Shown: one piece after another, positions 12,150 through 60,755 of the stretch | How the letters are laid out: every line of letters starts with the position of its first letter | Position numbering within the stretch: position 1 is the stretch's first letter | From: Tubulanus polymorphus | Taxonomy: Eukaryota > Nemertea > Palaeonemertea > Tubulaniformes > Tubulanidae | Direction: 5' to 3' | Assembly: GCF_964204645.1 (NCBI RefSeq) | Contig: NC_134036.1 | Location: 5,465,600 to 5,529,599, forward strand | Length of the DNA stretch: 64,000 bases | The notes under the pieces: generated by a model | What the model was told of the DNA's origin: nothing | Databases searched by the model: none | What the model saw: only the letters and a program-made list of their open reading frames with translations | Position numbers and translations under genes: made by a program

Positions 12150-12800
12150 TTAAGTGTTTGGAAAAAATATAGTAGAATCTTACTGCGGTAGAATTGGGAC
12201 TGGTAAAATTCTACCCCGAGTTGGTGTCAAATACTGAGTAAGAGTTTGTGAAATACAGTAGGCACTGCCTCCTACTGCGGTAAAGTTGAGATCGGTAAAA
12301 TTCAACCTCGAGTTGGTGTCAAATACCGAGTAAGAATTTGTGAAATACAGTAGACTCTGTCTCTTACTGTGGTAAAGTTGACACTGGTAAAATTCAACCT
12401 CGAGTTGGTGTCAAATACCGAGTAAGAATTTGTGAAATACAGTAGACTCTGTCTCTTATTGCGGTAAAGTTGAGACTGGTGAAATTCAACCTCGAGTTGG
12501 TGTCAAATACCGAGTAAGAGTTTGTGAAATACAGTAGACTCTGTCTCTTACTGCGGTAAAGTTGAGACTGGTAAAATTCAACCTCGAGTTGGTGTCAAAT
12601 ACCGAGTAAGAATTTGTGAAATACAGTAGACTCTGTCTCTTACTGCGGTAAAGTTGAGACTGGTGAAATTCAATCTCGAGTTGGTGTCAAATACCGAGTA
12701 AGAATTTGTGAAATACAGTAGACTCTGTCTCTTATTGCGGTAAAGTTGAGACTGGTGAAATTCTATATACGGCTCAGTTTAGATTCTTGAAATTCTACCC
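12150..12800 (+). repeat. 92-bp minisatellite B, array 1
   Basis: About six or seven units at 92-bp spacing, for example CCTCGAGTTGGTGTCAAATA at about 12,306, 12,398 and 12,490, each with CAGTAGACTCTGTCTCTTA and GGTAAAGTTGAGACTGG. Two further arrays, both in this orientation, lie at 26,400-26,790 and 58,630-58,990. Confidence 0.95.
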
Positions 12801-20599: not shown

Positions 20600-20995
20600 G
20601 TAAACAAGGGTTTCAACACTATGATACAGGAGTCAGTTACAGAAAGGTTGTTTAATGTAAACCAGTGTTTAAATACCGCGGTACAGGGGCCAGTTACTGA
20701 AAGGTTGTTTAATGTAAACCAGTGTTTAAATACCGCGGTACAGGGATCAGTTACTGAAAGATTGTTTAATCTAAACCAGTGTTTAAATACCGCGGTACAG
20801 GGGTCAGTTACTGAAAGGTTGTTTAGTGTAAACCAGTGTTTAAATACCACGGTACAGGGGTCTGTTACTGAAAGGTTGTTTAATGTAGACAAGTGTTTAA
20901 ATACTGCGGTACAGGGGTCAGTTACAGAAAGGTTGTTTAGTGTAAACCAGTGTTTGAATACCGCAGTACAGGTGTCAGTTACAGAAGGTTCAAAG
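20600..20995 (+). repeat. 57-bp minisatellite C, array 1
   Basis: About seven units at 57-bp spacing, each with CAGTTACTGAAAGGTTGTTT, then AACCAGTGTTTAAATACCGC and GGTACAGGGG. The palindrome TACCGCGGTA is in every unit. The unit length is a multiple of 3, so a 19-residue repeat frame stays open on both strands; I treat this as an artefact. The second array, at 39,515, is inverted. Confidence 0.9.
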
Positions 20996-21704: not shown

Positions 21705-22165
21705 TAGTAATGTTGCTAATAATGAACTTCTCATTCTTGACGACTTCAAGTTACTTCCTAGTTACTAATGACGACCTTCTCGTCCACAATAACTTCAACG
21801 ACCCAGTAAAATTATGATTAGTTACTAATGACGACCTTCTCATTCTCGATAACTTCAACGATTCAGCAAAATTATGATTAGTTACTAATGACGACCTTCT
21901 CATTCTCGATAACTTCAACGATTCAGTAAAATCATGATTAGTTACTAATGACGACCTTCTCATTCTCGATAACTTCAACGATTCAGTGAAATTATGATTA
22001 GTTACTGATGACGACCTTCTCATTCTCAATAAATTTCAAATTCGGCAAATTCAACAATTCAACAAATTATAATTTCTAATGACGACCTTCTCGTGCCCAA
22101 TTACTTCGACGATCAAGTAAACATATGATTAGTTACTAATGAGGACCTTCTCATTCTCTATAATT
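21705..22165 (+). repeat. 60-bp minisatellite A, array 2
   Basis: About seven or eight units of the same 60-bp sequence as at 7,531, in the same orientation. The middle units are nearly identical and the edges are degenerate. Confidence 0.95.
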
Positions 22166-26399: not shown

Positions 26400-26790
26400 A
26401 TACCGACTCAGAGTTTTAGAAATATGTAATAGTACGCTATTACCCTTACTGCGCTAGAGTTGAGCCTGTTGAAAATTCATTCCTGAGTTTCTGTCAAATA
26501 CTGTGTAAGAGTTTGTGAGAAACAGTAGACTCTGTCTCTTAATGCGGTAAAGTTGAGACTGGTAAATTTCTACCCCGAGTTGGTGTCAAATACTGAGTAA
26601 GAGTTTGTGAAAAATAGTAGACTCTGTCTTGTCCCTTACTGCGGTAAAGTTGAGACTGGTAAATGTCTACCCCGAGTTGGTGCCAAATACTGTGTAAGAG
26701 TTTATGGACTATACGGTAGGCTCTGTCTCGTACTGCGTTGAAATAGAGTAATCTGTTTGTCTCTTGTTGAGGTAACAGTAGACGCTCGAC
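26400..26790 (+). repeat. 92-bp minisatellite B, array 2
   Basis: About three and a half to four diverged units of the 92-bp repeat (CCCCGAGTTGGTGTCAAATA, then CAGTAGACTCTGTCTC), in the same orientation as the arrays at 12,150 and 58,630. Confidence 0.9.
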
Positions 26791-39514: not shown

Positions 39515-39875
39515 GCCCCTTTTAGTAACTGACCCCTGGACCGTGGTATTTAGGCACTGGTTTATACATTAAACAACCTTTCAATAACTGACCCCTGTAC
39601 CGCGGTATTTAAACACTGGTTTACATTAAACAACCTTTCAGTAACTGACCCCTGTACCGCGGTATTTAAACAACGGGTTTACATTAAACAACCTTTCAGT
39701 AACTGACCCCTGTACTGCGGTATTTGAACACTGGTTTACATTAAACAACCTTCCAGTAACTGACCCCTGTACCGCGGTATTTAAACACTGGTTTTTATTA
39801 AACAACCTTTCACTAACTGACCCCTGTACCGCTGTATTTAAACACTGATTAACGATAAACAAGCTTTCGGTAGAT
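39515..39875 (-). repeat. 57-bp minisatellite C, array 2 (inverted)
   Basis: Six units of the same repeat as at 20,600 but in reverse orientation: AACTGACCCCTGTACCGCGG, then TATTTAAACACTGGTTTACA and TTAAACAACC. The minus-strand frame is the same 19-residue repeat artefact. Confidence 0.9.
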
Positions 39876-40334: not shown

Positions 40335-40815
40335 TATGATTAGTTACTAAATGACGATGAAATTCTCATTGTCGATAACATCGACGATTCAGTAAAATTA
40401 TGATTAGTTACTTATGACGACCTTCTCATTCTCAATAACTTCAACGATTCAGTAAGATAATGATTAGTTAGCAATGACGCCCTTCTCATTCTCAGTAACT
40501 ACAAGGATTCAGTAAAATTATGATTAGTTACTAATGACGACCTTCTCATTCTCAATAACTTCAACGATTCAGTAAAATAATGATTAGTTAGCAATGACGA
40601 CCTTCTCATTCTCGATAACTTCAACGATTCAGTAAAATTATGATTAGTTACAAATGGCGACCTTCTCATTCTCAATAACTTCAACGATTCAGTAAAATTA
40701 TGATTAGTTACTAATTACGACCTTCTCATTCTCGATAACTTCAACGATTCAGTAAAATTATGATTAGTTACCAATGAAGCCCTACTCATTCTCAGTAACT
40801 TCAACGATTCAAAAT
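40335..40815 (+). repeat. 60-bp minisatellite A, array 3
   Basis: Eight units of the 60-bp repeat, in the same orientation as all other A arrays. Confidence 0.95.
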
Positions 40816-42486: not shown

Positions 42487-42796
42487 ACACCCCGATCAGC
42501 ACCGAGCACCGGCGCTTCGTGGAATATGTAACTTCGACGTCCGGAACGAAGTGCGCCGCAAAACCGCTCAAAACATCGCAAACACAAGAACATCTCAGAA
42601 CCGAACCATCGCGCGCGAGATTTAGTTCGGAATCATCGTCAAAATGGTGAAACAATTTCAGAATCAGAGTTTCGGCTCGATTCGCAAAGAAGCGGCCGGC
42701 AAAGGAGAGCTGTGGGTCGACCCGTTATTCCCGCCGAATAGCAAGTCGCTGTTCTTCAGCAAAGTCGATCGAGAAATCGAATGGAAGCGTCCCGGG
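42487..42796 (+). CDS. Calpain exon 1 (5' UTR plus residues 1-51)
   Basis: The acceptor ends at 42,486. The 5' UTR runs 42,487-42,643 and coding 42,644-42,796, ending in phase 0 before GTAAGT. It encodes the N-terminal anchor helix region and the [16 protein letters not shown] and EWKRPG motifs that open calpain cores. Confidence 0.9.
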
Positions 42797-45700
42797 GTAA
42801 GTGAGTTTGTTTTCTCGATTCAAAACGAGCATGTGTGGATACTGAGAGTTGCGTTATTATCGTGATTCAGTAAAATGAATGTATGAATGGTTCGGGCCTT
42901 CTTGAGTTATTCGGTAAAATTATGATTAGTTACTAATGACGACCTTCTCATTGTCAATGACTTTAACGATTCAGTAAAATTATGATTATTAACTTATAAC
43001 TACCTACTCATTCCCAATGAATTAAATGATTCAGGAAGATTATGATTAGTTACTAGTGACGACCTTCTCTTTCCCAATAACTTCAACGATTCAGTAAAAT
43101 TATGATTAGTTACTAATGACGACCTTCTAGGTCTCGATAACCTTAACGATTCAGTAAAGTTATGATTGGTTACTAATGACGACCTTCTCATTCTCAATAA
43201 CTTCAACGATTCAGTAAAGTTATGATTGGTTACTAATGACGACCTTCTCATTCTAAACAACTTTAACGATTCAGTAAAATTAAAATAAGTTCTTATGTAT
43301 AGACAAAATCAATACCAGTTCCCATAGACAACCCTCTCGAACGATTCGACAACCAATATCATGGCCTAGAAAAAAAGTCGACCACTATTAAAACGCTATA
43401 AGGAAATGTGGGCAGATTTTCTAGAAAATGTTTTCGTAATAAAACGCGACTGGTTCGGTGCGAATTGAAAGGTTATTAGGGCAACGCGTCGAAATAAAAG
43501 AATTCGGATGTTCGATTTCCCGTCAGAAACACAATACTTCCCATCTCTTCCTGGCGTCTTATCGAATCTTATCATCACCAGCAACTCCCATTCCGCGAGC
43601 GTGTACATGAAACGTGGCCGCCTCCACGATGGCCACAACGACGTCATCGAAATGATTTAGGATATCGGCTTCTAGATACCTATTTAAAGCAAAATCCATG
43701 CATAGTCGAAGCTATAAATCAGTTTGATCACAATATCCTTGATCGAACAAAGAACGTACTATGCAAAAATTGTTGAATGATTTTACAAGGAGTGCTTGGC
43801 CGAGTCCACGATGGCCACAATGACGTCATCGAAATGATTTAGAATGTCGGCTTCTAGATACTATTTAAAGCAAAAACCATATATAGTCGAAGCTATAAAT
43901 CAGTTTCATCACGATATCCTTGATAAAAAAATGAACGTACTATCCAAAATTTGTTGACTGATTTTACAAGGAATTTTTGAAGATACTAGAAATATTTCGG
44001 GTGGTTTCTATATACCGCCCTTTTCAGTCTAATAATCGAGATTTTCAGACGAGGAAGGGGCTAGGAACTGTCGTAAATCTTCCAAATAAACATTTCAAGG
44101 TTGTTCAACGATTGCTGGATATCTAAATTCATCCAAGCTATTTTCGTCGACTTGCAGGAACTGTGCAAATGCCCGCAGCTGGTTGTGAACGGGGTCAGCA
44201 CGGAGGATTTGAACGAAGGCGAATTGGGCAACGGCTGGTTCGTCGCCGCTTGCTCGAGTCTGGCTCGCGAGCCAAACATGTGGAACAAGGTAATTCAGGC
44301 GTCAATCATTGCTCCGGCAAAAAATATGGATTGAATTCATATACAGATTTAAGCCTATTTTTGGTATGTGAGCTATCCTACTTATTGCAAGGCTCAGTTT
44401 GGTTCAATAATAGCCATTGAAACAACTTGAGGCCAGTTATTTTCGTTCCAAAAAGAATATAAGGACATAAGGCCAGTGAAAGCTCATTTATGTGCTATAA
44501 CCGTTCTAACAATTTAAGACCAATCTAAGCTCATTCGTTTCTTTAATCCAACACTTAAGACCAGTTTAAGCTCACGTTTGTTCCACGAACAATCCAAGAA
44601 CTTATGACCAGTCTAAGCTCATTTTGGTCGACGAGCATTCTAACAATTTAAGACCAGCCTAAGCTTATTTTGATTCTACGATCAAGTACCTTAGAAGACC
44701 GGTCAAAGCTTATTTTGAATCTGCAACCAATCTATCTACCTAGGACCTGTCGAAAGCTAATTTTTGGTGTCATAACCAATCTAAAAACCTACGCCTATTT
44801 TCATTCTATAGCCAACCCTACAAACTAAGACAAACCTATTCTAATTATGGTTCTATAAGCGAACAGTCATTAGACTTTCATGAGATCAAATTTCACCTAG
44901 ATGCATTACGAATTCTCCACCCCGACATATATGCCCCTAGGAAACTAAAATCGCTGGTTTCTTTTTTTTACGAACAGGTAATCGTCGACTATAAGGGACA
45001 GGAATGGTCGGAGAAGAACACGTACGCCGGCGTGTTTCACTTCGCGTTCTGGCGTTACGGAGAGTGGATCGACGTCGTCGTCGACGACTTGTTGCCGACG
45101 AAAGACGGCGAGCTGATATTCTGCCACTCGAAATCGAAAAGCGAATTCTGGTCGGCGTTGCTGGAAAAAGCGTACGCCAAGTAGGTCGAACGACGCGTCG
45201 GTCGTCACTTAGTACATAATTATTACATTTCATCGCCACTAGATGGCGTACTAAATAGATATAGATCCCTCCAATAATTAGTATGTTGTAAATCGTGTAT
45301 GTATATATTGTTAATAACTTTGTTATATTTTATCAAAACAAGTTTATACTTTCTGTTAAGTCTCCCTCCATGTACCATAGAAATTGTTAGAGTGTAAATA
45401 AAATCCTAATCCTAATCCTAATTCTAATCCTGATTCTCACCCGACCAACACCTTCAAAAAACCGTGTCCAGAATAGCTATAATAATCCGATATACATCGA
45501 TTTATGGCAATATAGAAAATTGATCTTAAATTAGTGAGGTATTTTGGTGAACTTCATGTCGATTTAGTTATTAGTTCATTCTAATTTAGAATTCGGTCTT
45601 ATCTTTTGCCTGTGAATAGATTATCAAACCTTCAGTTTCAAAAATATAGAAATCGTAGATTATGTTTCGCTTGTAATGTTTTAGGTGATGAATATAATTT

Positions 45701-48700
45701 TCAATTTCACTCTACTGAATAAAATCGGTGAAAACTATGTGAATCTTGGTATTCTAAAAAAATTTAAACAACCCAGTAAGCTAAATTCATCGAAATAGGT
45801 TTAGATGTATCCGGATCCCTTCAATACATTGTAAATAGTATATTTTGAAAAACTAACCTATGTTTTATTAAGCAAAGTTCATATTTTCCGTTCTTTTGTA
45901 ATCATTGCTTCACATACTCGCTGAATTTATTTCTAATTAAGGGTTTTTCCCCGATTTAATTATTGACAACCGATTGACCGAATTATAACTTTCTCATTCG
46001 CAGACTTTACGGGGATTACGAACACCTGAAAACCGGTTTCATCGCCGACGCGCTGGTCGACTTCACCGGCGGAGTCGCCGAGAAAATCGACCTGTCGAAA
46101 AAAGACCTACAAGAAAACGACGAACACAAATATCTATTCTTCAACGATCTGATGTCGTCGGTCGACAATCATTCTCTAGCCGTTGCCTATATCGACGTAG
46201 GTTGTTTTCCGGTTATTTTTTTCGAATGCAAATCTACCCCTCTTTCGCCTATAGATTTTCATCTCCATTTGTCGAAAGCGTTTCGGCCGATCGGAATGAA
46301 AGTTTCAGGCATTACGTGAACCTGGGCCCCAAAAACGATTCGAATATATATATATATATATATATATATGTCTTACATTATGGCTAAAAATAAGAGATAC
46401 CTTGTTTCTCCAAATCGGCCGGGTCATTTCGTAAACTGCAAAACAATGTAATCAGTTCATTTTTTCTATAGCTGCCGGGTCTGTCATGGTGAGCTTGATC
46501 ACGATACGTATCATATCTTACCGTTTTCGGAGTCATCGAAGAAGGCCAATTGGCCTATAATTTGACTGCCACGGTGTTTCACCTAAGTTGCCAGGTATTG
46601 CCAGCACTTCGGTATTAGCGAAAAATATAACAATTATCGTGAATTCTAGGAAACGTTCGGGTCCAAATTAGAAGTAATGTACGGGGTAGATAGGCGTCTG
46701 GCCGTGTCAACGTTTAAGCTCAGCAGAAACGAGAAACGAGGTATTAATTTCTAGCCTTACGTTTCCCCCTCAATTTCTGTTTATTTCCGATAAATCCAAC
46801 GCCAAACGTAGATTTATTTTCCCTTATGATATATATTTTTTTCTTCTAATTTCGATTTCGATTCAGGATTTATACGGTCGTTTGTTCGGCAGCGTAAGTG
46901 TCCCTTCGCCTATTCAAACCCCCGAGTGAAATTAAATGACCCGGAAAAATTATGTCGAATTCATTTAACATCGGGCCACGTGCACGCGGGCCTAGCTTAG
47001 ATTTAAGACCGCTCTAAGATCGCCTCGGTTTTACGGCCGGTCCCAACAACTTAAGACCAGTGACCGTGGAACCGGGCACATTTTTTTCTAGTGGAAATGT
47101 GTTCTTGGATACTATCTCAAATCTTATAGCTGGTCTCGACTTGTAGTAACATTGGCTGCCAGTACTCAGACTGGTCTTATATCATAAGTCATGATTGTGC
47201 GACCGGTCCCCAGATTCTGGGGCGCTATCTCGTCCTAGAGACATTTCTACCATTTTAGCAAGCGAGGACGCGACGAGTCGCTGAGTCCTAAGTTAATCAA
47301 TAACCAATAAGAACTTAACTAAACTTTGTAAAACGAAACAAAATATATATCCTCTAACGTTTGTTTGTGACTCCTATTTCGATTTGGGAACCTTGAAATT
47401 GAATACGCAAAGTTAGTTTCCAAAGTGAACTAACTTCTTGACTAAACGCCAGACCCACTGCTCTAGTCACTCGCTATGCGATGGCATGGCCCGCAGGTTT
47501 AATGTCGACCGGGATAATGAATTCGATTTCTCCGCCAGGTCGAAAATTCTGCATTCTAATAAACCACTTTCCTCTCTCCCTTCAGCTACTGCGGGATGGC
47601 CTTTTCCTATACTTTTCTCTAAACTTTTAAGTTTGCAGTTGATATCCTAGAATGCATGCATTAGGCTAGATCTACAGGTCTTAAGGCTGCATATCATATC
47701 GATATATCGCCTCATATTTCAACATCTCTGTTCGATTTTTAAGCAGTATGACGTATACTGTTTCTCATTCTAACGACATTTTTTTTCCGATGTTAGACAC
47801 AAAACCTCGCCTAAAAAAACTAACCCAAATTCGTGTCCTATACGTTAGAATGAATCTAATAGAAACTGTCATATTTTCATTCTCGGTTTGTATTTCGCGT
47901 TGCCTAACTATATGTTATTTCCCCTGGTAATTGGCTCTGTCGACTTCAATTCGTAACCTACGATTCTCACGCGTGACGCTAACTTCGGGACGGGAATGAA
48001 AAGAACTAATTTCTTTCTTCGTTGGTAACATCTCAGAAAATGCTTGATCAGATTTTCCCGCGTATAGAAATGCTTCGTGACTTACCTTTCGAAAATCCCT
48101 GGCGCGACTTCTATCTCATCTTAAGGAGAAGCTTCTATTTCCTTTCTCGAAATCTAGAATTAAGGAATAGCAAATATAGAAGTCGAGTTTGAAAAAGAAA
48201 AAGGAAAATAAGTCAGGTGTAACGATTTAGACGTGTATCGTTTCCTAATCGTAACACTACGGATACGTGCTAGAACATTGCCCCGAAAACGAAATGTACA
48301 TTCATCCTAGAATATTCAAAATTCCAGAATTAGCCACAATTGATACAGTTTCGTATAAACCAAATTCCGTTTTAGAAAAAAAAATCACTTATATAGTCAA
48401 TTTAGATCTGTTTCTTTAAGAAATTTCAAGAAAATCTAGGATACTATGAAAATACGTGTTTTTAAGTATCGAACGATTTCCTAAAAAATACAAGGCGTGA
48501 AATTGTTTAAAATTCTATTTCAAATATCTGCTGATACAATTCACATCGATGTTAGACATTTTTTTCAAATGCTATTTTTGTCATCCGTTTCGAAAAGCAA
48601 AAAATAATCAACTCATTCGAGATTTTTTTTCTCAAGTGGACGTAAATTTCGATGAAAATTACTTGTACGAATAGAAAATAGAATTAAAATTCCTGATCGT

Positions 48701-51700
48701 TGATGTCCATTTGAAATATTTTCTAAGACAAGTTCACGTCGATGTGGGGTCATATTAGAAATGCTTATTTCTGCTGATTTTCTGTCGTTTCTGTTCGGCT
48801 GTGTGTGTATAGTGCGCGACGAACGAGGCCGGCAAGGAACACGGTCAGGGGCTGATCAAAGGTCGCGGCTACAACGTGACGAGCGTCAAAACGATACGAC
48901 CCCCCGCCAACCTCGGCATACCGACCACCAATATGATCCGGCTGAACTACCCGTGGGGCGAGTCGCTGTGGACGGGACCGTGGTGCGAAAAGTAAGTAAC
49001 AAAAATAATCAGAAATGTTTCGTTGAGCTTTTAAATCTATAGCGGTTCGACTATATCCTAATTGCGAAAAGTAAGTAAAGCCGATTATCACGATCGAAAC
49101 CGTTGATAATACGAGATCCTTCCTATGGAAAAAAAACCAAAAAAATGTCAGACATTGTTTATTCAAATTCATTCGACGTTTCGACTCCATCCTAGTTGCA
49201 AAAAAGTAAGTAAGACCGATTATTACGATATAACCGTTATCACGAATGGATGGATAGATTTCTTCGACTTTCTACATATTAACTCACTATTCAAAATTTA
49301 TGGATCCGCCCCTGTTCGTAGGTAATTCAAAGTTCTAGCTTACGCCGCGGCTTTGAAAAATGCATGCCCGCGCGTCGCGTGCGACGTCAACGATCGATTC
49401 ATCGACGATTTTAATGCCAAACAAACAGAAAAAGCGATCGTTTAATCGCGAATTATTCGATACTTAAAAGCGTGCGATGTTCTTAAGTTCGGAGTCGTCG
49501 TCGCGCGTATACCGAACACGCTAACGCATCTTCGACCGCGGATACATATTTTTAGCTATAGATATTACGCGGCGTATATAGCGCTATTATTACTGGGTGT
49601 GGCCCTTCGTTGTTAAAAGTGAATTCACGATTACGTATATGTATATACATGATCTGATATTGTATAGACGCGCGATAAAACAGCGGCGTCTAGTATGACT
49701 TGATTTGAAGCAGGCGAGCTCGTAAAAGGCTTTTGAATCATTATTAAAGACTCAACCTTTTAGACAAAAGTTTACTTAATTGGTCTAGACTTTTACTGAT
49801 GCCGTACTAGTTAAATCTTTTTTGCACTATATATTGTGCTTGAAATTATAATCTAAATCTCTACTTCTTTTAGATTCTGTAAAACGCCTTTTAGAGGCCT
49901 TTGAAATAATGCGCTGTACAAGTTTTATGAAATAATCATCGCTTGATAATAACCCTGTAGCCAAACGTAGCTAAAGATATTTCGAATATGAATCCGAACA
50001 ACAGCTAGCGAAGGTCTTAAAAAGTTTTTGCAACATTATTTGGGGTCGGTTTTATGAGAAAACCTACCATTTCTACGGGGCTTCCGAACCAACGTCTTAG
50101 AATTAACAAAGTCCCCTCCAAAGTTGGGGTACCGAACAAACCCCACAGAAGTGCCCTTCAAAGTCGGTGTCGATTTTTTGTCAAGCTTTTTCGAAATTTG
50201 GATACAATTTTCGTGTCTTTGGAAAACGGAAAGCAATTAATTCTAGAATCAATCATTTACGGACACTTTTCCACCGTGAGAAGTGTCATTTTTAAATAAA
50301 ACAGCCCCTCAAAATGCGCGGAGCGGGCCCACCTTCTCTGGGTTTTTGTCATAGAAATATGGGCTGTTTTTGTGGTCTTTCACTCAATTAGTGTCAATGT
50401 CAGCTGTCAATGAAAACTATATATACGTTTGTCAGCTGCCGTGACCCGAAACCGCATGTCCAATAGATGGCGAGCTAATCAATCCTGCCTGTTCAAACTG
50501 CATCACCATGGTATAGTGCTGTTTTACAAACATTTAAATGCACTTAGAGAGGGGGGCTTGCAGTGGTTGATTTTTGTTTTTTAAAGCGTAAACTGAACAT
50601 ATAGGCCTACCACTGGTATAATTCATTATGATCCGGAATTATTACTTACAGTAGCTGAGTTCAACTTTAACCTAGACTGCATATGGCTCAAAGATTCCGA
50701 TTCAAGTTTTGACTCAAAAAAAGCTACTAATTCGATTTAATTTAGAGAGAGCAACACGTGCAACCGTGGGTTTTTACTATACTTATCGGTAAGATTGACT
50801 CAACACCGTGAGTTGTCCATATTAAGATACAGGTGGGCGCATCCCTTGGAAAAGTTGCGAAATCCTGACTTAATCCTGGGTTTTAAGATGTTAGGCTGGT
50901 CGTATACAACGAAGTCGATTTATAGGATTGATATAAAATCTCTACACCATATAAACCGTATGTACTAAGCACTTGACATTCATACTTCACCAGTCCACCG
51001 ACGCGAAGTCCTGCAACTTATATAGAAATTCTTGCACATTTCTCTAAGTTTCCTATGACATCCTAGAATTCCTATCGAAAGTTATAGACTTGTAAATAAT
51101 AGTATATACCTGCTAATTGAACTCACGCGCGGAACACCAATGTCACTGCATCCAACCATAAGTCGATATAATCGTGTACCTACGATCGAAGCTGACCCAG
51201 AAAGACGCACAACCTGAGCGCGCTGTATTGTAATATCGATTGATCGGCGACCTTAATCTGGTGTAGTGTTGAATTCGTAGAAGAATTCGGATTTTGGTTT
51301 GAACCCGCGGTGCGCCGTGCACGCGTGTATTCAAAAACGAAATGTAAGATACGCATTATTCATCGATATAGACATATGGTCGATATGGGAATATTTCTAG
51401 TTAGAAATATTGATTTTGGATGGCCATTTCCGCGTAGGTTTTTGAAATTTTTTAGATATCATCCTTATACCTTTAATTTGCCTTCACCAAAAAATGATCG
51501 AATAAAAAATCACGGACGTTTCATACACATAGCGTTGGTCCCAGTCGTGACTTCATTCCAAAAATTCTTCTTAAGTCTGGTGTTAAGTCGTTAGATCGGT
51601 TAAATAGAACTAAGATAGAATCGGACCTGACTTACACCGTGTATACACAAAGCTTTCTCGACTGATGTCCAACCGACCCCTGGAATTGCCTCGAGTGAAT

Positions 51701-54700
51701 TAGCCTAAATGTAAATTTAGAATCGTTGCTATGTCTATGAATTGTGTCATTTATGCGTAATGTTACAAGAAAAAACATAGTACGAATAAAAATCATTTTA
51801 ATAATGAAATACGTAAATAAATAAAATATGATATTTCCGAAGATGACTATTAAGATAGTCCAAACGTTGCAATGAACTGCTTGCTCGGGAAACATTTCGG
51901 ACTCTTTCGGATTCTTTATTTGAAAATTGTAAAGATTTTCCATTCATTTTCGCGGCGGGATTTTACATATCATCTTAACATAATACGTACAGAGTTGGTT
52001 TTCCATAGGCAAGTGGCTGTCTGAATTCGATAAGTTAATAAACCGACAATTGGAGATAGTTTTAATGTTTCAACTCAATTCTATGAGCCATTTTCACAAT
52101 ACTTTTAAAATCGCTCATAAAATTGGGTTGAAACGATACAACTTTATCTTAGTTTTTCTTATAATTGTGGGTTTATCAACTTAACGTACAGAGCGTTTCA
52201 TCAATAAAAATATCTTAATATCTTGTCTAAACGAAGGCATTAATCATTTCACACCATTTCAAATCTTTTTACTGGTTTTACACCATTTTTAAACGTACAC
52301 TATTTTGAGTGATAATTTTGCATTTTATCAATGGTTGTAAAAAAATCCAAATGCCTAAAACGATGCATACATCATTTTTGATAAATTTTGATAGAATTTT
52401 GATAATTTTTTTTTCTCATGAGCAGGTCAGAAGAATGGCAGAAGCTGCCGATGAACGAACGCAGCAAACTGGGAATGAAATTCGCCACCGAATGCGAGTT
52501 CTGGATGACTTTCGACGATTTCCTGGCGAATTTCACGCACATCGAAATCTGTCACATCGTCAACACGTCGATATTCAGCCTGAAGAAAACCTGGCACGAG
52601 AAAGTGTTCACCGGCAAGTGGTCGAAAGGGTCGCGCGAGGCCGGCAAAGACCGCAGCGGCGGCAGCGACAAGCACGAAACGTTCTTGAACAATCCTCAGG
52701 TGAACAGATAAAACGCTATGTGACTGTATATTACGACCTTTCTCCATAAGTTCTTACATTTAGTAAAGAACTGAGATAAGTTACTTATGACGACCTTATC
52801 ATTCTCAATGACCTCAACGATTCACTGAAATTATAATTAGTTACTAATACAAATTTTCTCATTTTTATGACTTCAACGATTTAGTAAAATTATAATTAGT
52901 CACTTAATTAGTTAATGACGACCTTCTCATTCTCAATGACTTCAGTAGTTCAATAAATTATGATTGGTCACTTATTACGGCCTTAATGACCTTCTCATTC
53001 TCAATAAATTCAACGATTCAGTAAAATAATTATTAGTTACTAATGATGACCTTCTCATTCTCAATTAATCCAATAATTCAGTCAAATATTATCGATTTCA
53101 ACGATTCAGTTTAATCATGATTAGTTACTAATAACTACTTTCCGTTTACCAAATAAATGCTGCCATCATATTATGGTGTAATTGGTTACTAATCATTTCG
53201 AATGAAAAATCAACACAATGTTCCTAATTCAATTTACAACGATATTCACGTTTTAGTACGTATTCGACGTGACGTCACTACGCGACACGATCATGGTATC
53301 GCTGGAACAAAACGATATTCGCGCCGATCGAATGGAAGCCGAAATCAACAAAATAGGATTCTCGATTATAAAGGTACCGCTGGGTCCGGGTGGCCGACGT
53401 CGTGGACAGGCTGGGTGATTCAACGCAACTGCGATCGTTATAACGGGTTTTCTGTTTCAAACGTCATTATTTTCTCTCCCAAGGTCGAAGAAAACCGCAA
53501 GTTCAGAGTACACGGCGTCGACGAGAAGGTGATGACGTCGGAATACACGAAAAGTCGGAACATATTCCAGAAGGTGGGGCTGACGAAAGGACGCTACGTC
53601 GTCATTCCGACCACCGAGGAGCCGGGTATAGTCGGCGACTATCTGTTGCGTATTTATACATCGCAGGGTTCGGGAGCTGGGTGAGTGTAGTAACTTTACC
53701 GAAATGTAGTTCTTATCTTTAGAAACTTTAGAAAAATAAGAGAAATTGATAGTTGCCTGCTAAAACCACCGGGCCCGCAGAGCCGATAACGCCTACGTAT
53801 TTGACGGCTTCTAATTGCTGCGTAGAATATTCTAATGCGAGAAAACGACTGTCGTAATTCGGTGTCCCTCATAAACCCACCTCACCTACCTACCGAGACC
53901 GGAACAGAGCGTTGAAAAAAACGACTGTTAGACCATACGATCATAAATCGGTTGTTTGCAAAGGCTGAAAATCGAAATTTTGTTCAAATTTTCGTTTCGA
54001 TATTTTCTAAGTCACAGGTACGACAAATACGACTCTCTGGACCACCACAACGACAGTACGCTGTCCGTAGGCACCATGGGCACCATGGTCGATCGTTTCC
54101 GCGATAACAAGGGTTTCCACGCGTAAGATTCCTATCTATAGCGCTACCACTATATCATATATAGTCCATATATATGTCCGTTCTATATGTACACAAATGG
54201 CGTCATTATATTAAATTGTATTGAAAACCCATATATAGCCCGATAAACCCCGTACCATTTACCGAGTATACGCATGGCCACGAAATATCTTTTAAAACTC
54301 CCAGCAATCGCAGTTGTAGCTGGAGAATTGATACAATATGTTCTCGGCGAACCTATATCCTCACGGCTGTAGCGAGAGAACCGCGAGTTGAACAGATACG
54401 ATAGGTTCTCGGTGAACCCTCTCTCCCTACAGCTGTAGCGGAAGATCAGCGAGTAGAATAGACAAGACAGGTCCTCTCTCCTCACAGCTGTATAGCGGGA
54501 GAGCAGCGAGTAGAAGAGATGCAATAGGTTCTCGGTGAACCCTCTCCCCTCACAGGTGTGGCGATCGAAGAGACACGATAGGTTCTTGTCGAACCGTTGG
54601 CAGCAAAAGCCACATCGTAAACACATCCCCACAGCTGTGGAAAGCATCTAAGCTGCGTTTAGACAATATCATCCTTCATCACCACTTTTGAAAATAAATC

Positions 54701-57700
54701 CTCCATGATTTCTTCTATTATCTCCACAAATTTAGCGACGGACCGAAGAACTGCGGAGGTAGCATTTTATCGATATCCAGTTTCATCGACAAATTCGTCG
54801 AAAGCCCCGGAGAATGGCTGTAAGAACGAACCCCTAGAATAACCATATTTAACGCTCGTTTGTCCCCCTGGTGTCGGATTCGTGTACTTATTAACCATAG
54901 GTGACGGACTAGGTATTGAAGCATGCTGTTCCCTTTACGGATTGCTGACTAGTTCGTTCTTGTTTCGTGTTTTTCTCTGGCCTTGACTTACATAATATAC
55001 TAGAAACAATTTAACAGCGGTTGAGTACGCGTTAAAATTCTGTTTCGCTTGAAGATGCCATGGGTTATATTGGCCTCTTTTTGTGAAGATTGATGAAGAA
55101 GTTAGCTGTCAAATTTAATTGGAGTTACATTCTATGAACGCTAACTGGCGGGTAAAAAAACATATAATAAAGATAGCCGCAAAGCAGCGATATCGGTTGT
55201 TCTCCACTGTTTGTTTGAATTCAAACATAATAGTTTAAACTTTAACTCTATGGACCTGAGTCATAGAGGCCTCCAAAATTTAATTCGATCGACCGTTCCG
55301 ATTTTTCGTTAGATTTCCCACAATTTTGCCCTTCTCGTTACGAAATGGTCGACGTATTTTACTACGTATTTCATTGTTTTTTTTTTCACCAGCAGAGGTT
55401 GAGGCACGTATATACACATTGTATGCATGGAAAACCTCTTAACTCAGTAAGCTACTGTACAACGTAACCTGCATGAGAAATGGCAAATAACAGCTTAAAC
55501 GCTTTCGGAAAATAAACTAATATTATCATCTTTAGCTTGAAGTATCATCTGGTCTGTTTCGATAATGATGCTGGTTGATTCGGGCAAACAACGGGGTTAA
55601 AAGGGAGTCACGTACTGAACTGTAGACCCAAGTAACCATGGTCAAAATTTCATCTGTATTTCACTGAGGAGGATTGGGTGGGAGTTCAATTATAGAGAAA
55701 ATTCTAGATTATCTCCTGATATTCTGATGTAAATGTAAATTGGGCATCCACCTTCTTAAAAAGAAGAAAACGAAGGTCAACCATCATCGGGTTCGAATCC
55801 AGCTACGCAGTCCAGATATAGGTCAATTTTGAGGCTATGAAAACACGGTTGTTTTCTTTTTTTATGTTGACCAAACTCAAAAAGTCTTTTTTCATCAAAT
55901 CTAAAACGCCTCGAAAATAATCTTAAATCTCGGCTGCTGCCTAAACCACGCCCCCTGGTGAACGAAAACACCAACAGCTTATAATATGCTAATAATTATA
56001 CCTAACGCTCGAGACGCTTTCTTTCTTTTCGAATCTATCGTTTTTTAACGTTTCTGATCGTTTGTGTGTTTGTTCTTCCTCTTTTCCTGCTTGCTCGTTT
56101 TTCAAACAACCGCGCAGTCATCCCTCTGTGATGGACAACGTCACGTAAGTATACCATTTTATTTCACTAATCTACAACATTAATAGCGAAACTTTTTTAT
56201 TTACTCAACTATCCTCCTTTTTGTATACGTATATCGATTCGAATAATCATTTTCTTCTCTGTTTTTATCATTCATTTTGAAACAATTACTTAATAGTTTC
56301 AATAATTTCATTACAATAAATTTCTGAAATTGATTGATTTTTATTCAAAAATAAATGAATTAATCTTTTAAATTCGAACCGGTAGAATCAATTTTTAGAA
56401 TCAATTTAATGATATGATATTGATATGATAAGAAATCATTCAATTAATTCTAAGCTAAACAATAATGTTATGCGCAATTCTCTTTATCTTCTATTCATAT
56501 CTAATTTCAAATGTGTTCCATTTTACGATCCCAACAATAAATGTCTTGATATTAAATATCTCCAAAATATTTCTTTCTACAGAAAAATGTGTTCTGACTT
56601 TTGCATTATACTGCGTCATATATATTCAGTAATTTCTTACGCCAAGTTTTGATAATGTTTTTCGTTTAATGCGAAGCTCATTTGGTGATAATCCGCTGAT
56701 CTTATTCATTGGCCAAACGATTAAACAACTGTGGCAATCGAGGATCCACTAGGATCGCTGTTCTGGCAACACGCGTGAAATCAGGCTTCCGCCGTGTTGA
56801 GACTTTGACGATCCATATAATAATCAATCCAACATTTCCCTTATACTAACTAAGAGTTCTTGCCCTATTTTTCGCGATGGCGCCCTCGTCGTGCATAGTA
56901 CCCCGCCGGGCAACGAAACGGGAAGTCTGAACGAATCGCGCGAGCTCGAGGACTTCGACGATACCGCTAGCATGGCGACATCTAGCGGCACGCTTCAGCG
57001 TAAACAACGCCGCGAGCAATATCTGCCATCGATGAATCAATTACGGTAACCACCGAGTCGTCAAACGCCACCCAGCAGGTGTAACTTTCACATTCACTCG
57101 ACGTAGTAACCTTGTCGTTTGCTACTGATTAAAGATGGCTGCAAAGCAGTTTTATACTTAAAATTCGACTTAACATGAATATCTTATTGTCTTAGGAGAA
57201 AATTATTAGCCTTGTCGATTAGATATGGCCACAAAGCAGTCATATTTGTGAAATAGCAGACGAAATACCGTTGTGTCACTTTTTGTCCTTGTAGTTCGAA
57301 AGATATATCAACACAGGTCGAAAGATTTAAGAAACAAAAAATAACAGATGTTTACACGCACTCACTTGACGTATTAGCTATAACTGTTTTCAATTGGTAC
57401 TGAATAAATACGGCCACAAAGCGGTATGATCGATTGAATTCGATTTGGTGCGTCGTGCTTCTATCGGTATTGGTAACCGTATCGCGATTTGATATTGAAA
57501 AAAGTTAGTAAATTCGAAAGAAACCATAGAAGTTACCTCAATTTCACTTAGTGTAGTAGCTGTGACACTTTAATTAGGAGCTAAATGAATATAGCCGCGA
57601 AGCAATCTTATTGGTGAGATATGGGACCTGCATCGTTGTACCGCTATTGGTAACCATTTTGGGAATTAGATATTAACCACAACCGAATCGGATACATATC

Positions 57701-59917
57701 TATCGGTCGTCTCAACGGAAAGAAGGGTTGTTACGATCGACACAATGCGAAATTATTTATATTTCAACCGAGCAGGAAAATAGTTTCCGGAACGCAGAAC
57801 ATTCCAACGGATGCAAGTGATCAGGTTTTAAGTCTATTGGCGAATCGAATCCCCAAAAAATCAAATTTTTCGCCTCGATCTAAGCGCGCTTCATTTTACA
57901 TTTGAAACCTACACGAAAAAAAAAGTCACTGCGTTTTCTATTCGTTGTAATTGCTTTTGGTCAACTGAAAATCGTTTACTTAGCACTTTTTGATAACCTT
58001 TGTTGGTTGTACTTTCGATTTTTTTTTCAAACGGTTCACTCGCAAGTATATAATCTCACACTTTTATATATTCGTTTTATTTTCTAATGTTGTCTAAATT
58101 TGATTTTAAAAATTGGGTCCATGTCAGTATGTTTCATTATCGAATAACATTATACACTATTCGTACCTCGTAGTAATAAGTTCTCGAATACACAGTCAAT
58201 ATAATAAACAGTTCCTAAATCGTCGATTCATATTTGACAGAAAGTTCAGATACAATTTGAAATTTACACAAAATTCTAACTGTATCGCCGAGTTGTGGAA
58301 CTCGGTTTTTGCTTATTTCGATATCCTTATATTTAAAAAACTCATTCGTTCTATATTCTAAGAATTAAATTTTGACTTGGTGTTTTGATATTCCTTTTTT
58401 AATTGCTTATAGCGAATTGTCGAAAGAATACCCGAAGCCGTTTCTGCCTTGCTTTCCCAATCATCGCATGGTGACCCAGGTCACCGTCGTGCAAGCTACA
58501 GATCTGGCCAAGTCGGACAACCCTAAAGAAAGTAAGCTATGGCAATTCATCCAACGCGGATTTTATTTCGAGGCGGGAATATTCCAATTGAAGGCCGCAT
58601 TAAACCGATAAAGAGTTAATGAAATACGGTTTAGACTTTGTTTGTTACTGCGGTCAAGTTGAGACTGGTAAAATTTTATCCTGGTTTGGTGTTTAATACT
58701 GAGTACAAATTTGGATCAAATACAGTAGACTCTGTTCCTTGCTGCGGTTGAGTTTGATAAAATACTACCCCGAGTACGAAGCTGTAAAATAATGAGTAAG
58801 AGTTTATAAAGTACATTGTCTCTGCCTCTGTCGAGTTGGAGTCAAATACTGAGTACGAGTTTGCGAAATACAGTAGACTCTGTCTCTGTCTCTTACTGCG
58901 GTTAAGTTGGGACTGGTAAAATTCTATTCCGAGTTGGTGTCAAATACCGAGTAAGAGTGAGAAACAAGGACCGTGTCTTACTGTGGTATAGACCATTGAA
59001 ATGACATTTGGAACCGAATATCCTAAGAAACCCTTTCTTTCTTTCTTTCTTTCAGCGGTAGATCCGTTCGTAGTGATCAAGGGCGAGGGCGACTCGGTGA
59101 AAGGGATCGTAGCGGAGAACACCACTAACCCGGTATGGAACACTCGAGGCGTGTTTTACCGAAAGAAACCCGACGACAAGCCAATCATTATCGAGGTCGG
59201 TAAAGAAATATACATATAAATATAGCCGCAAGGCAGCATAATCGTATAAAATACACACTTCTTCGTAATATAGCTGCTAGGTGGCGTTAAGTTTCGAAAA
59301 TAATAGGAAAGTCAAAATCATAGTCATTGCACAACATTAAGAGTATCGAAGCAATGTGAAATAGATTAAATCTAAATATCGCTACCAGGCAGCGTAATGG
59401 TATGAAATAGGAAAACGTTAATTAAGCCGACTGGCATTTCGGATATAAATGTTTGTCGGAAAAAAATGGTTTGAAAATACAAATGTCCTCAAATAGCGCC
59501 AAGGCCGCTTCAGAGTGTAGAAAATATTTGCAGGTGGTGATCTGGATTCAATACTTAAAGCGATTGAACGATTTCCATTTTCCATATTTTCTTCATTCAA
59601 TACTTACTGATTGAAGAGTCATTTCGAACGTTTCCGGCGATAGCGATTGCTCGTTATCTAAGACTTGACAATTATTATCCCATATTATCAAAAAAAAAAA
59701 CAAATATTGAACAAGCGATTTTATTTTTCGCCAGGTCTGGAACAAGCAACGCATGATCAACGATTTCATGGGCATGTGCGAAGTGGCGACGCTCGGCAAC
59801 GAAGAGGGCGTCACCGAGAAGATACCGCTCACCGGCAAAGGCAGCGAGAGCGAAGTGGCAAAACCCGGTATACTGACCATCATCGTCAAGTCGAGCACCG
59901 ACCTCGAATATTTCTAA
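42487..59917 (+). CDS. Calpain-5/TRA-3-type calpain with C2 domain, predicted catalytically dead
   Basis: Fifteen coding exons join in frame to about 750 residues; human CAPN5 has 640. Domain order: protease core PC1 (about 1-200) and PC2 (about 200-345), beta-sandwich CBSW (about 350-483), an extra linker (about 484-604) and a C2 domain (about 610-745). Marks of the CAPN5/CAPN6/TRA-3 group are the missing EF-hand domain, the C-terminal C2, and words such as [40 protein letters not shown] and [10 protein letters not shown]. Active enzymes are cytosolic Ca-dependent Cys proteases that make limited cuts. Here active-site Cys is G77, His is R245, Asn is Y273 and the oxyanion Gln is E71. It should therefore fold but not cleave, perhaps acting as a scaffold as reported for CAPN6. 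The start ATG at 42,644 has A at -3, G at +4 and an in-frame TAG seven codons upstream. No gene symbol is assigned because orthology to CAPN5 versus a paralogue cannot be settled here. Confidence 0.9.
42865..43285 (+). repeat. 60-bp minisatellite A, array 4 (calpain intron 1)
   Basis: Six to seven units inside intron 1, in the same orientation as the gene and as all other A arrays. It starts about 70 bp after the exon 1 donor. Confidence 0.95.
43615..43975 (+). repeat. Tandem duplication of about 180 bp (calpain intron 1)
   Basis: Two copies beginning TCCACGATGGCCACAACGAC (about 43,623) and the diverged TCCACGATGGCCACAATGAC (about 43,804), both ending in ATTTTACAAGG. They are roughly 90 percent alike by eye. 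Confidence 0.85.
44158..44289 (+). CDS. Calpain exon 2 (residues 52-95), active-site Cys replaced
   Basis: 132 nt, phase 0-0, between TTGCAG and GTAATT. It encodes the active-site helix: [18 protein letters not shown] where active relatives have QG...[13 protein letters not shown]. Codon GGC at 44,233-44,235 gives Gly77 in place of the nucleophile Cys. GAA at 44,215-44,217 gives Glu71 in place of the oxyanion-hole Gln. The Trp and the rest of the helix are retained. Confidence 0.92.
44390..44880 (+). repeat. Degenerate tandem array TTAAGACCAGTCTAAGCTCA (calpain intron 2)
   Basis: Seven or so drifted units of about 60-65 bp with AATTTAAGACCAGTCTAAGC, TCATTTTxGTTC and CGAxCAATC. Related words are at 1,855-1,945 and 46,985-47,200. 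Confidence 0.7.
44978..45180 (+). CDS. Calpain exon 3 (residues 96-163)
   Basis: 203 nt, phase 0 in and 2 out (AA/GTAGGT). Encodes the rest of PC1, including [26 protein letters not shown] and [14 protein letters not shown], all strongly conserved in the CAPN5 group. Confidence 0.92.
45240..45425 (+). mobile_element. Non-LTR retrotransposon 3' end (LINE copy 4, calpain intron 3)
   Basis: TAGATCCCTCCAATAATTAG, a 3' UTR with TCCCTCCATGTACCATAG, then AGAGTGTAAATAAAATCC and a tandem tail of TAATCC units (45,400-45,435). It begins 60 bp after the exon 3 donor and is inserted in the sense direction. Confidence 0.7.
45590..45900 (+). mobile_element. Second LINE 3' fragment (calpain intron 3)
   Basis: A decayed reverse transcriptase C-terminus ([15 protein letters not shown], then stop-interrupted [10 protein letters not shown]) precedes a 3' UTR beginning ATGTATCCGGATCCCTTCAA. 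It belongs to the same family as the copy at 35,300 but is older. Confidence 0.6.
46004..46196 (+). CDS. Calpain exon 4 (residues 164-227)
   Basis: 193 nt, phase 2 in and 0 out. Completes [12 protein letters not shown] and carries [17 protein letters not shown], the PC1/PC2 junction conserved in the family, ending SLAVAYID before GTAGGT. Confidence 0.92.
46344..46370. repeat. TA microsatellite (calpain intron 4)
   Basis: (TA)n run of about 26 bp. Confidence 0.9.
46867..46893 (+). CDS. Possible 27-nt calpain microexon
   Basis: A pyrimidine-rich acceptor (TTTTTTCTTCTAATTTCGAT region ending TTCAG) and a perfect GTAAGT donor enclose 27 nt reading DLYGRLFGS, phase 0-0. It lies in intron 4 between two phase-0 boundaries, so inclusion keeps the frame. 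Without it the protein aligns to human CAPN5 with no gap, so it would be an optional 9-residue insertion just before the former His loop. It could be chance. Confidence 0.35.
46985..47210 (+). repeat. Degenerate TTAAGACC repeats (calpain intron 4)
   Basis: Words such as AGATTTAAGACCGCTCTAAG and AACTTAAGACCAGTGACCG recall the array at 44,390 but are few and diverged. Confidence 0.45.
47211..48812. other. Calpain intron 4, distal part
   Basis: AT-rich intronic sequence without repeats or exons that I could support. Confidence 0.5.
48813..48991 (+). CDS. Calpain exon 5 (residues 228-287), His and Asn replaced
   Basis: 179 nt, phase 0 in and 2 out (AA/GTAAGT). It encodes [18 protein letters not shown] where active relatives have KGHAY, so His is Arg245 (CGC, 48,864-48,866). 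It also encodes [17 protein letters not shown] where relatives have LRNPWGE, so Asn is Tyr273 (TAC, 48,948-48,950). Spacing is unchanged at both sites, so these are substitutions and not indels. Confidence 0.92.
48992..52425. other. Calpain intron 5
   Basis: A 3.4-kb intron, the longest in the gene. Apart from dispersed repeat M at 50,040-50,330 and AT-rich DNA I see no exon or named element. A diverged duplication near the 5' end repeats AAGTAAGTAA and CCGATTATCACGAT words (49,070-49,230). Confidence 0.5.
50040..50330 (-). repeat. Dispersed repeat M, copy 2 (calpain intron 5)
   Basis: Reverse orientation of the 32,770 element: minus strand ATTGTATCCAAATTTCGAAA, GAAGGGCACTTCTGTGGGGT and, at the start, TTTTGAGGGGCTGTTTTATT. 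Confidence 0.55.
52426..52699 (+). CDS. Calpain exon 6 (residues 288-378)
   Basis: 274 nt, phase 2 in and 0 out. Begins [12 protein letters not shown] and contains [20 protein letters not shown] and [17 protein letters not shown]. It closes PC2 and enters the beta-sandwich domain, with a basic Gly/Ser-rich loop ([19 protein letters not shown]). Confidence 0.92.
52755..53175 (+). repeat. 60-bp minisatellite A, array 5 (calpain intron 6)
   Basis: Six or seven diverged units filling most of the 557-bp intron 6, in the same orientation as the gene. Confidence 0.85.
53257..53373 (+). CDS. Calpain exon 7 (residues 379-417)
   Basis: 117 nt, phase 0-0. [18 protein letters not shown] aligns with the CAPN5 beta-sandwich strand, and the exon ends IGFSIIK. 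Confidence 0.9.
53484..53680 (+). CDS. Calpain exon 8 (residues 418-483)
   Basis: 197 nt, phase 0 in and 2 out (GG/GTGAGT). [15 protein letters not shown] and [20 protein letters not shown] are near-canonical CAPN5-group sequence. It ends the beta-sandwich domain with [13 protein letters not shown]. Confidence 0.92.
54018..54122 (+). CDS. Calpain exon 9, linker cassette 1
   Basis: 105 nt, phase 2-2. Encodes a polar stretch ([20 protein letters not shown], then [12 protein letters not shown]). It has no counterpart in human CAPN5. Skipping it keeps the frame. Confidence 0.85.
54340..54650 (-). repeat. 66-bp minisatellite D, array 2 (inverted, calpain intron 9)
   Basis: About four to five units in the reverse orientation to the 23,355 array: GGTTCTCGGTGAACCCTCTC, CTCACAGCTGTAxAGCGGGA and GAGCAGCGAGTAGAA. 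Confidence 0.88.
54736..54819 (+). CDS. Calpain exon 10, linker cassette 2
   Basis: 84 nt, phase 2-2 between TTTAG and GTAAGA. Encodes a Gly/Ser stretch then a short helix-like piece ([17 protein letters not shown]). Frame continuity with exons 9 and 11 supports it. Confidence 0.78.
54990..55260. repeat. Degenerate GCCGCAAAGCAG repeat (calpain intron 10)
   Basis: AAGATAGCCGCAAAGCAGCG at 55,170. The same theme occurs at least four times in 57,130-57,620 and three times in 59,215-59,400 with about 100-180 bp spacing, suggesting a dispersed degenerate array. Confidence 0.45.
55261..56117. other. Calpain intron 10, distal part
   Basis: A B-box-like TCGGGTTCGAATCCAGC lies at about 55,786. No exon was seen. 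The last 20 nt before 56,118 are only moderately pyrimidine-rich. Confidence 0.4.
56118..56144 (+). CDS. Calpain exon 11, 27-nt linker microexon
   Basis: 27 nt, phase 2-2, bounded by CCGCGCAG and a perfect GTAAGT. With the flanking bases it encodes [10 protein letters not shown]. Frame agreement on both sides is the main support. Confidence 0.65.
56145..56898. other. Calpain intron 11
   Basis: Very AT-rich, with a copy of the TGTGGCAATCGAGGATCC motif at 56,729-56,765. No other element was recognised. Confidence 0.45.
56899..57045 (+). CDS. Calpain exon 12, linker cassette 4
   Basis: 147 nt, phase 2-2 between GTGCATAG and GTAACC. Encodes an acidic then basic Ser/Thr-rich region ([18 protein letters not shown], then [11 protein letters not shown]). 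It is probably disordered and phosphorylatable. It is absent from human CAPN5. Confidence 0.8.
57120..57660 (+). repeat. Degenerate GCCACAAAGCAG array (calpain intron 12)
   Basis: Four diverged copies of TATGGCCACAAAGCAGTxAT about 105-180 bp apart (57,135, 57,225, 57,412 and 57,590), with shared flanks such as CACTTGACGTAxTAGC. Confidence 0.55.
58413..58531 (+). CDS. Calpain exon 13 (residues 604-643)
   Basis: 119 nt, phase 2 in and 1 out (A/GTAAGC). [19 protein letters not shown] matches the CAPN5 segment before the C2 domain. [18 protein letters not shown] is C2 strand 1 and the first Ca-loop region. Confidence 0.92.
58630..58990 (+). repeat. 92-bp minisatellite B, array 3 (calpain intron 13)
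   Basis: About four diverged units, in the same orientation as the arrays at 12,150 and 26,400, between exons 13 and 14. Confidence 0.88.
59056..59195 (+). CDS. Calpain exon 14 (residues 644-690)
   Basis: 140 nt, phase 1 in and 0 out. [37 protein letters not shown] and DDKPIIIE are C2-domain strands. The acceptor tract is a (CTTT)n microsatellite. The donor used must be GAG/GTCGGT, because the stronger-looking GTAAAG 4 nt downstream would break the frame into exon 15. Confidence 0.9.
59215..59425 (+). repeat. Degenerate GCCGCAAGGCAG copies (calpain intron 14)
   Basis: TATAGCCGCAAGGCAGCATA, ATAGCTGCTAGGTGGCGTTA and ATCGCTACCAGGCAGCGTAA, related to the array at 57,120. Confidence 0.45.
59735..59917 (+). 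CDS. Calpain exon 15 (residues 691-750) with stop
   Basis: 183 nt including TAA at 59,915-59,917. [20 protein letters not shown] and [17 protein letters not shown] complete the C2 domain. The length and end agree with CAPN5 family C-termini. Confidence 0.93.
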   Translation, partial: VWNKQRMINDFMGMCEVATLGNEEGVTEKIPLTGKGSESEVAKPGILTIIVKSSTDLEYF

Positions 59918-60589: not shown

Positions 60590-60755
60590 TCTCGACGAGT
60601 TCAACAATTCAGTGAAATTGGAATTAGTTACTAACGACGGCGTTTTCGATCCCAATAACTTCAACGATTCAGTGAAATTATGATTAGTTACTACCGACGA
60701 CCTACTCATTCTCGATAACTTCAACAATTCAGCACAATTATGATTATTCATTCCC
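60590..60755 (+). repeat. 60-bp minisatellite A, array 6
   Basis: Nearly three units, in the same orientation as the five other A arrays. Confidence 0.9.

Follow-up and report, generated by a model that had tools for sequence, protein, structure and literature searches.

A calpain-5-like gene of the nemertean Tubulanus polymorphus has lost the catalytic cysteine, histidine and asparagine of its protease core together with the glutamine of the oxyanion hole. The gene lies in a stretch of 64,000 nucleotides (contig C12, positions 5465600-5529599, of a 267.8-Mb genome; hereafter the window), where our own gene model gives it 11 coding exons between positions 42644 and 59917 of the forward strand and a product of 629 amino acids. 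From the sequence, we assign a probability of roughly 0.78 to the reading that this gene encodes a full-length, conserved and non-proteolytic CAPN5-type calpain that would act by binding, and that it is the Tubulanus member of a clade here called b. Clade b, an old CAPN5 paralogue, has been retained in addition to the canonical CAPN5 in several spiralian phyla, with members found in nemerteans, molluscs, annelids and a brachiopod. A preliminary description of this DNA had pointed to the missing catalytic residues, but it did not anticipate a multi-phylum paralogue in which such residues are lost recurrently, nor a nemertean relative, in Lineus, that keeps all four.

Catalytic residues and calcium sites of the window protein

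Direct reading of the DNA places E71, G77, R245 and Y273 where Gln, Cys, His and Asn are expected, in surroundings that are otherwise conserved, and the NCBI model from the same assembly (calpain-5-like isoform X2, P0001) shows the identical four replacements. On both points, the replacements and their conserved setting, the preliminary description was right. The Cys-His-Asn triad and the oxyanion Gln of active peptidase family C2 are therefore missing from the window protein, and cleavage of peptides is not expected of a predicted core that lacks both nucleophile and base as well as Asn and the oxyanion Gln, which supports the earlier prediction of a non-proteolytic invertebrate calpain. In a classical calpain of Aplysia, a change of Cys to Ser alone eliminated autolysis (PMC5650170).

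The replacements stand out against a well-preserved background. Among 114 alignment columns that are at least 97% conserved in 53 CAPN5/6 sequences outside the b clade, 17 are changed in the window protein, and since all four catalytic columns are among these 17, the catalytic replacements exceed chance (hypergeometric 3.6e-4). The other 97 of the 114 conserved sites are retained, and the change is thus focused. The b protein of Lineus (Lineus_b) keeps 103 of these columns, ten of which are changed in the window protein: all four catalytic columns, two belonging to Ca2+ site 2 (E279 and D286), S285 and G310, which lie close to these in sequence or in the site, P98 and D578. The residues of the calcium sites were taken from the list in section 11 of PMC4631099 and mapped through an alignment with CAPN2. 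The residues of site 1 are retained in the window protein (V61, G63, D68 and E151), as they are in nearly all b proteins (G63, D68 and E151 each in 35 of 36, V61 in 33 of 36). In site 2, Glu has become L279 and Asp has become E286, and E311 is retained.

A paralogue kept beside canonical CAPN5

An active-type paralogue, which the preliminary description had thought worth seeking in the same genome, is found on contig C9 (about 12.73-12.75 Mb, reverse strand) as a canonical CAPN5 with GNCW, KGHAY and NPWGE intact. Its joined exons are 99% identical to an NCBI calpain-5-like protein (P0121), and the window protein is 42% identical to this canonical CAPN5 of the worm. The two genes encode the same domains, and of the ten introns in the window gene, nine match an intron of the canonical gene to within one alignment column, and the tenth is displaced by 8 columns, in the linker ahead of C2; the canonical gene has one intron more. 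Such matching intron positions mark the window gene as a DNA-level duplicate, not a retrocopy. Nine other calpain-bearing places, the canonical CAPN5 included, were fetched from the genome, and the Cys motif was found at eight of them; it was not located at the ninth (L029), and His and Asn were not located at every one of the nine.

The window protein belongs to the CAPN5/TRA-3 subfamily by its domain order and its closest PDB match. Pfam searches with P0001 recover Peptidase_C2, Calpain_III and C2 above the cut-offs, in the order PC1-PC2, domain III and C2 with no EF-hands, and no further Pfam domain at E 0.001; NCBIfam gave no match. In the PDB, the 287-residue protease core has calpain-5 as its top match (6p3q, E 3.7e-83), followed by CAPN2 (E 6.9e-61).

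Within this subfamily, the window protein is closest, among the matches listed, to a set of nemertean, mollusc, annelid and brachiopod proteins, not to canonical CAPN5. Sequences P0002-P0032 (31 in all) outscore every arthropod and vertebrate CAPN5 among these matches, and four or five more are intermixed with them; identity to Lineus_b is 54-56%. The b relatives come from ranked lists limited to the best 120 of up to 8000 scored candidates, a sampling that cannot show absence from cephalopods, bryozoans, flatworms, ecdysozoans and other groups. In a tree of 69 sequences, clade b has an ultrafast bootstrap (UFBoot) of 100 and the canonical spiralian clade, here called a, one of 99; the window protein falls inside b and groups with Lineus_b at UFBoot 100. 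This tree includes 31 of the 36 b sequences, and a FastTree of 90 sequences includes all 36. Both hold CAPN5/6-type proteins only, without classical calpains and nematode TRA-3, and therefore cannot test closeness to CAPN5 among calpains. Copies of both a and b are listed in 17 species, by name. In addition, the window protein carries the b-type residues V/I60, G/D234, G246 and E309; at position 81, where 33 of the 36 b sequences have T or S, it retains A81.

Counts for clade b refer to 36 sequences, leaving out a Bulinus fragment (P0232; Cys to T, His to Q) and fragments from Octopus and Tegillarca. Left out both of these counts and of the 53 outside sequences is P0235 of Mytilus galloprovincialis, a long branch that joins the base of b (UFBoot 100) and has canonical residues at positions 60, 81, 234 and 246 as well as all four catalytic residues. 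We treat it as a long-branch canonical-type duplicate; if it were a true b member, b would number 37 sequences with Cys lost in 31. Three fast-evolving extra copies of b, from Gigantopelta, Babylonia and Mytilus (P0028, P0224 and P0233), are all without Cys, and their presence suggests further duplication inside the clade.

Recurrent loss of catalytic residues

Of the 36 b sequences, 31 have another residue in place of Cys (T in 13, S in 10, A in 3, G in 2, V in 2 and M in 1), whereas canonical a copies retain C, H, N and Q wherever aligned. His is lost in 17 of the b sequences, Gln in 19, and Cys and His together in 16. Asn is lost in the window protein alone, which is also the only one of the 36 to have lost all four residues, and at the other end only Lineus_b and Mactra_b keep all four. 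Tubulanus thus shows the most complete loss seen, comprising the four residues and part of the chemistry of Ca2+ site 2.

The members of b that keep Cys are spread over nemerteans (Lineus), annelids (Owenia), chitons (Liolophura) and bivalves (Solemya and Mactra), so that several independent losses are the natural reading. Parsimony on two trees requires a minimum of 6 gain or loss changes for Cys, which may include regain, or 9-10 losses if loss is irreversible, a count that depends on Mactra_b being real and correctly placed; the corresponding figure for His is 6 or 10. For Asn, a gap in Paralvinella_a was scored as a change, and unordered parsimony gives one change. When the 114 conserved columns are ranked by change within b, Cys77 comes 8th, Gln71 10th and His245 11th, with 7, 5 and 8 different residues, respectively, while Asn273 comes 55th and Trp275 99th.

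Four further substitutions typical of b, A246G (adjoining His), E234G, F60I and D309E, are already present in the triad-intact Lineus_b and so probably preceded the catalytic losses. We put at even odds a history in which the b ancestor had already shifted its essential role off cutting, with changes to the pocket and the Ca2+ sites (A246G, E234G/D, D309E and F60V/I) arising before the catalytic losses; Cys, Gln and His would then have drifted and been lost repeatedly, in brachiopod, annelid, nemertean, bivalve and gastropod lineages, with Ca2+ site 1, domain III and C2 kept, and the outcome would be a series of parallel pseudoenzymes. Six of the 36 b proteins, from bivalves and limpets (e.g. 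P0010, P0011, P0024 and P0027), have Thr for Cys and keep Gln, His and Asn, so that the nucleophile alone is missing. Judging from the residues present, b relatives with Thr or Ser for Cys and with His and Asn kept could possibly be residual or altered hydrolases, an activity not expected of the window protein with its Gly, Arg and Tyr.

Origin of the b lineage

Two placements of b were rejected in an approximately unbiased (AU) test on 37 sequences with full searches and 10000 replicates, namely a grouping of b with CAPN6 (p 0.0004) and a duplication confined to nemerteans (p 7e-10). The former rejection, together with the retention of Cys in the CAPN6 of chicken, tuatara, kiwi and gar in our alignment, agrees with the independence from CAPN6 that had been supposed at the outset. 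A fast-search version with 5000 replicates, too few according to an IQ-TREE warning, gave the same two rejections and a borderline rejection (p 0.047) of the tree in which a and b are both monophyletic; in the full searches, that tree, the free tree and a tree with b outside protostomes are equal in likelihood.

Sisterhood of a and b, and hence a firm spiralian duplication, is not supported, as the grouping has a UFBoot of only 66 in the 69-sequence tree (bipartitions taken without re-rooting) and is absent when P0235 is omitted, in which case a joins the arthropods (UFBoot 78). In the free 37-sequence tree, b is placed outside a plus arthropods. The duplication may thus have occurred on the spiralian stem, or it may be older, in which case other groups have lost the copy or it has gone unseen in them.

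Constraint, predicted function and alternative explanations

Indirect signs suggest that the window gene is still under constraint. Its frame runs through 629 codons without a stop or frameshift, with GT-AG junctions at all introns; the GC content at third codon positions (GC3) is 0.716, against 0.369 for the introns; and Tajima tests of the window protein versus the triad-intact Lineus_b are not significant with four of five outgroups (p 0.65-1.0). Moreover, conservation between Tubulanus and Lineus in b is 57% for domain III and 57% for C2, compared with 61% and 65% in a. The name of isoform X2, and the location of seven other b sequences on contigs of 2-4 kb, suggest that these genes may be transcribed.

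Other observations weigh against a conserved, non-proteolytic b protein. The fifth Tajima test (outgroup P0023) gives p 0.019, with the window protein faster. The protease core is much less conserved between Tubulanus and Lineus in b than in a (60 versus 83% for PC1, 51 versus 79% for PC2). Finally, Lineus_b and Mactra_b keep all four catalytic residues, and this evidence therefore does not extend a non-proteolytic role to all of b. The pattern across domains is consistent with constraint having moved from the core to the other domains, but a relaxation of constraint on the core would give the same picture.

On balance, we favour a window protein that would act by binding and not by cutting, either as a scaffold or as a competitor or regulator of the canonical calpain. 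Its site of action may be membranes or the cytoskeleton, with C2 predicted to serve in membrane targeting, and likeness to CAPN6 makes a membrane- or cytoskeleton-associated binding role probable. Because site 2 is altered, with site 1 kept, Ca2+ probably drives closure of the core less effectively. The preliminary description had offered scaffolding or substrate trapping as functions; trapping seems the less likely of the two, given that the residues of Ca2+ site 2 are altered as well.

The main variant of this binding role, overlapping with it in probability and in itself no better than tentative, is that the window protein serves mainly as an inhibitor or decoy of canonical CAPN5 by binding its substrates or partners, and less as a scaffold in its own right. 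The retained domains and the listing of a and b side by side in the same species are in keeping with such a function, but the altered Ca2+ site 2 and the Arg and Tyr in the active site would disfavour the trapping of substrates. One may argue instead that the gene is a decaying pseudogene, a redundant copy whose active-site changes are the first neutral decay, given the canonical CAPN5 in the same genome, PC domains less conserved than in a, and the acceleration in one of the five Tajima tests. We consider this improbable, since the 629 codons in 11 exons are free of stops and frameshifts and have GT-AG sites, GC3 is coding-like, identity to Lineus_b and the 97 of 114 conserved columns are maintained, and domain III is conserved about as in a, with C2 slightly less so. 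Still more improbable is an error of assembly or base calling at the four codons: each is one base away from the canonical codon (TGC>GGC, CAC>CGC, AAC>TAC and CAA>GAA), but four independent mistakes falling exactly on catalytic codons would be very unlikely, Ca2+ site 2 and flanking positions are changed as well, and most of the related b genes are without Cys and many without His or Gln. Lastly, CAPN6 shows that loss of Cys can occur in a CAPN5-type calpain, but a nemertean-only duplicate or CAPN6 relative with a single loss of catalysis can be practically dismissed, at a sampling of 37 sequences, in view of the AU rejections of both placements.

Gene structure and other features of the window

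The intact frame reported in the preliminary description holds, but over 11 coding exons and not 15, and the extent given there, 44215-48950, reaches only from within exon 2 to within exon 5 of the gene (Table 1). P0001 equals our model plus two short in-phase exons of 84 and 27 nt; both cassette peptides were located in the window DNA, and the exon ends were set from the flanking AG/GT.

Table 1. Coding exons, replaced catalytic codons and cassette exons of the window calpain gene (positions in the window)
Feature	Position	Strand	Basis
Coding exon 1, start Met, residues 1-51	42644..42796	+	gene model; N-terminus matches CAPN5
Coding exon 2, PC1, holds E71 and G77	44158..44289	+	gene model
GAA, E71 replacing oxyanion-hole Gln	44215..44217	+	DNA reading, alignment
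GGC, G77 replacing nucleophile Cys	44233..44235	+	gene model, alignment
Coding exon 3, PC1, Ca2+ site 1 residue E151 retained	44978..45180	+	gene model
Coding exon 4, PC2	46004..46196	+	gene model
Coding exon 5, PC2, holds R245, Y273 and Ca2+ site 2 L279/E286	48813..48991	+	gene model
CGC, R245 replacing catalytic His	48864..48866	+	gene model, alignment
TAC, Y273 replacing catalytic Asn; P274 and W275 after it retained	48948..48950	+	gene model, alignment
Coding exon 6, PC2 end and domain III start	52426..52699	+	gene model
Coding exon 7, domain III / CBSW	53257..53373	+	gene model
Coding exon 8, domain III / CBSW	53484..53680	+	gene model; Pfam Calpain_III
Cassette exon of NCBI isoform X2, 84 nt	54736..54819	+	P0001 peptide at 54740-54820
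Second cassette exon of NCBI isoform X2, 27 nt	56118..56144	+	P0001 peptide at 56122-56145
Coding exon 9, linker and C2 start	58413..58531	+	gene model
Coding exon 10, C2	59056..59195	+	gene model; Pfam C2
Coding exon 11, C2 end, stop codon	59735..59917	+	gene model

An open stretch at 56801-57046, in the large intron that precedes the C2 exons and outside both our model and isoform X2, encodes an acidic serine-rich peptide and could be an unannotated exon or due to chance. Elsewhere, the window contains several tandem repeats. A 60-bp unit (ATTCAGTAAAATTATGATTAGTTACTAATGACGACC...), apparently one and the same, occurs in five arrays (7529-8050, 21759-22163, 40363-40811, 42909-43282 and 60600-60746); two arrays of a 57-bp unit (20625-20990 and 39518-39872) are apparently reverse complements of one another; and a unit of about 92-97 bp is found twice (12178-12763 and 26445-26737). 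No tRNA or Rfam match was found in the window.

Comparison with known calpains

CAPN6 (calpamodulin) resembles the window protein in its CAPN5-type architecture, in being a paralogue of CAPN5 and in a non-proteolytic role, with Cys lost in eutherians (PMC3731218). Among vertebrates, this loss is reported for placental mammals only, marsupial and avian CAPN6 being described with the triad kept, and CAPN6 is reported to stabilise microtubules and to regulate Rac1 (PMC3731218). The differences are that CAPN6 belongs to a lineage separate from b, that Gln, Cys, His and Asn are all replaced in the window protein, and that loss recurs across phyla in b. Other inactive calpains, such as Drosophila CalpC, likewise have a calpain fold without the full triad but, compared by description only, are not placed in the CAPN5 C2-domain lineage. 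Inactive calpains are reported to be widespread, with 344 left of 1234 aligned UniProt proteins in one survey (PMC3315469) and 337 of 3795 homologues in another (PMC4631099), and they also occur in trypanosomes (PMC3731218).

In molluscs, two C2-domain Tra calpains, AplTra1 and AplTra2, are known from Aplysia (PMC5650170) and, by their description only, are likely to represent a and b; the available text of that paper yielded no comment on their catalytic residues. No description of a recurrently inactivated CAPN5 lineage was found in the literature searched, which consisted mostly of open papers without supplementary tables, and such a lineage may be listed somewhere.

Roles of calpains outside proteolysis are a long-standing subject of discussion, and CAPN6, the most familiar example among animals, represents one event in placental mammals. 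Clade b adds a second CAPN5-type lineage, independent of the first, where catalysis has apparently been lost several times in parallel. Many b genes are named "calpain-5-like" or "Calpain-5" in databases and may therefore be mistaken for active proteases. Beside a canonical paralogue, the clade runs from intact (Lineus and Mactra) through partly lost (Liolophura, Owenia and Solemya) to fully lost (Tubulanus) catalytic residues, and it thus offers a natural series in which one can ask what functions of calpains require cutting and what the remaining surfaces bind.

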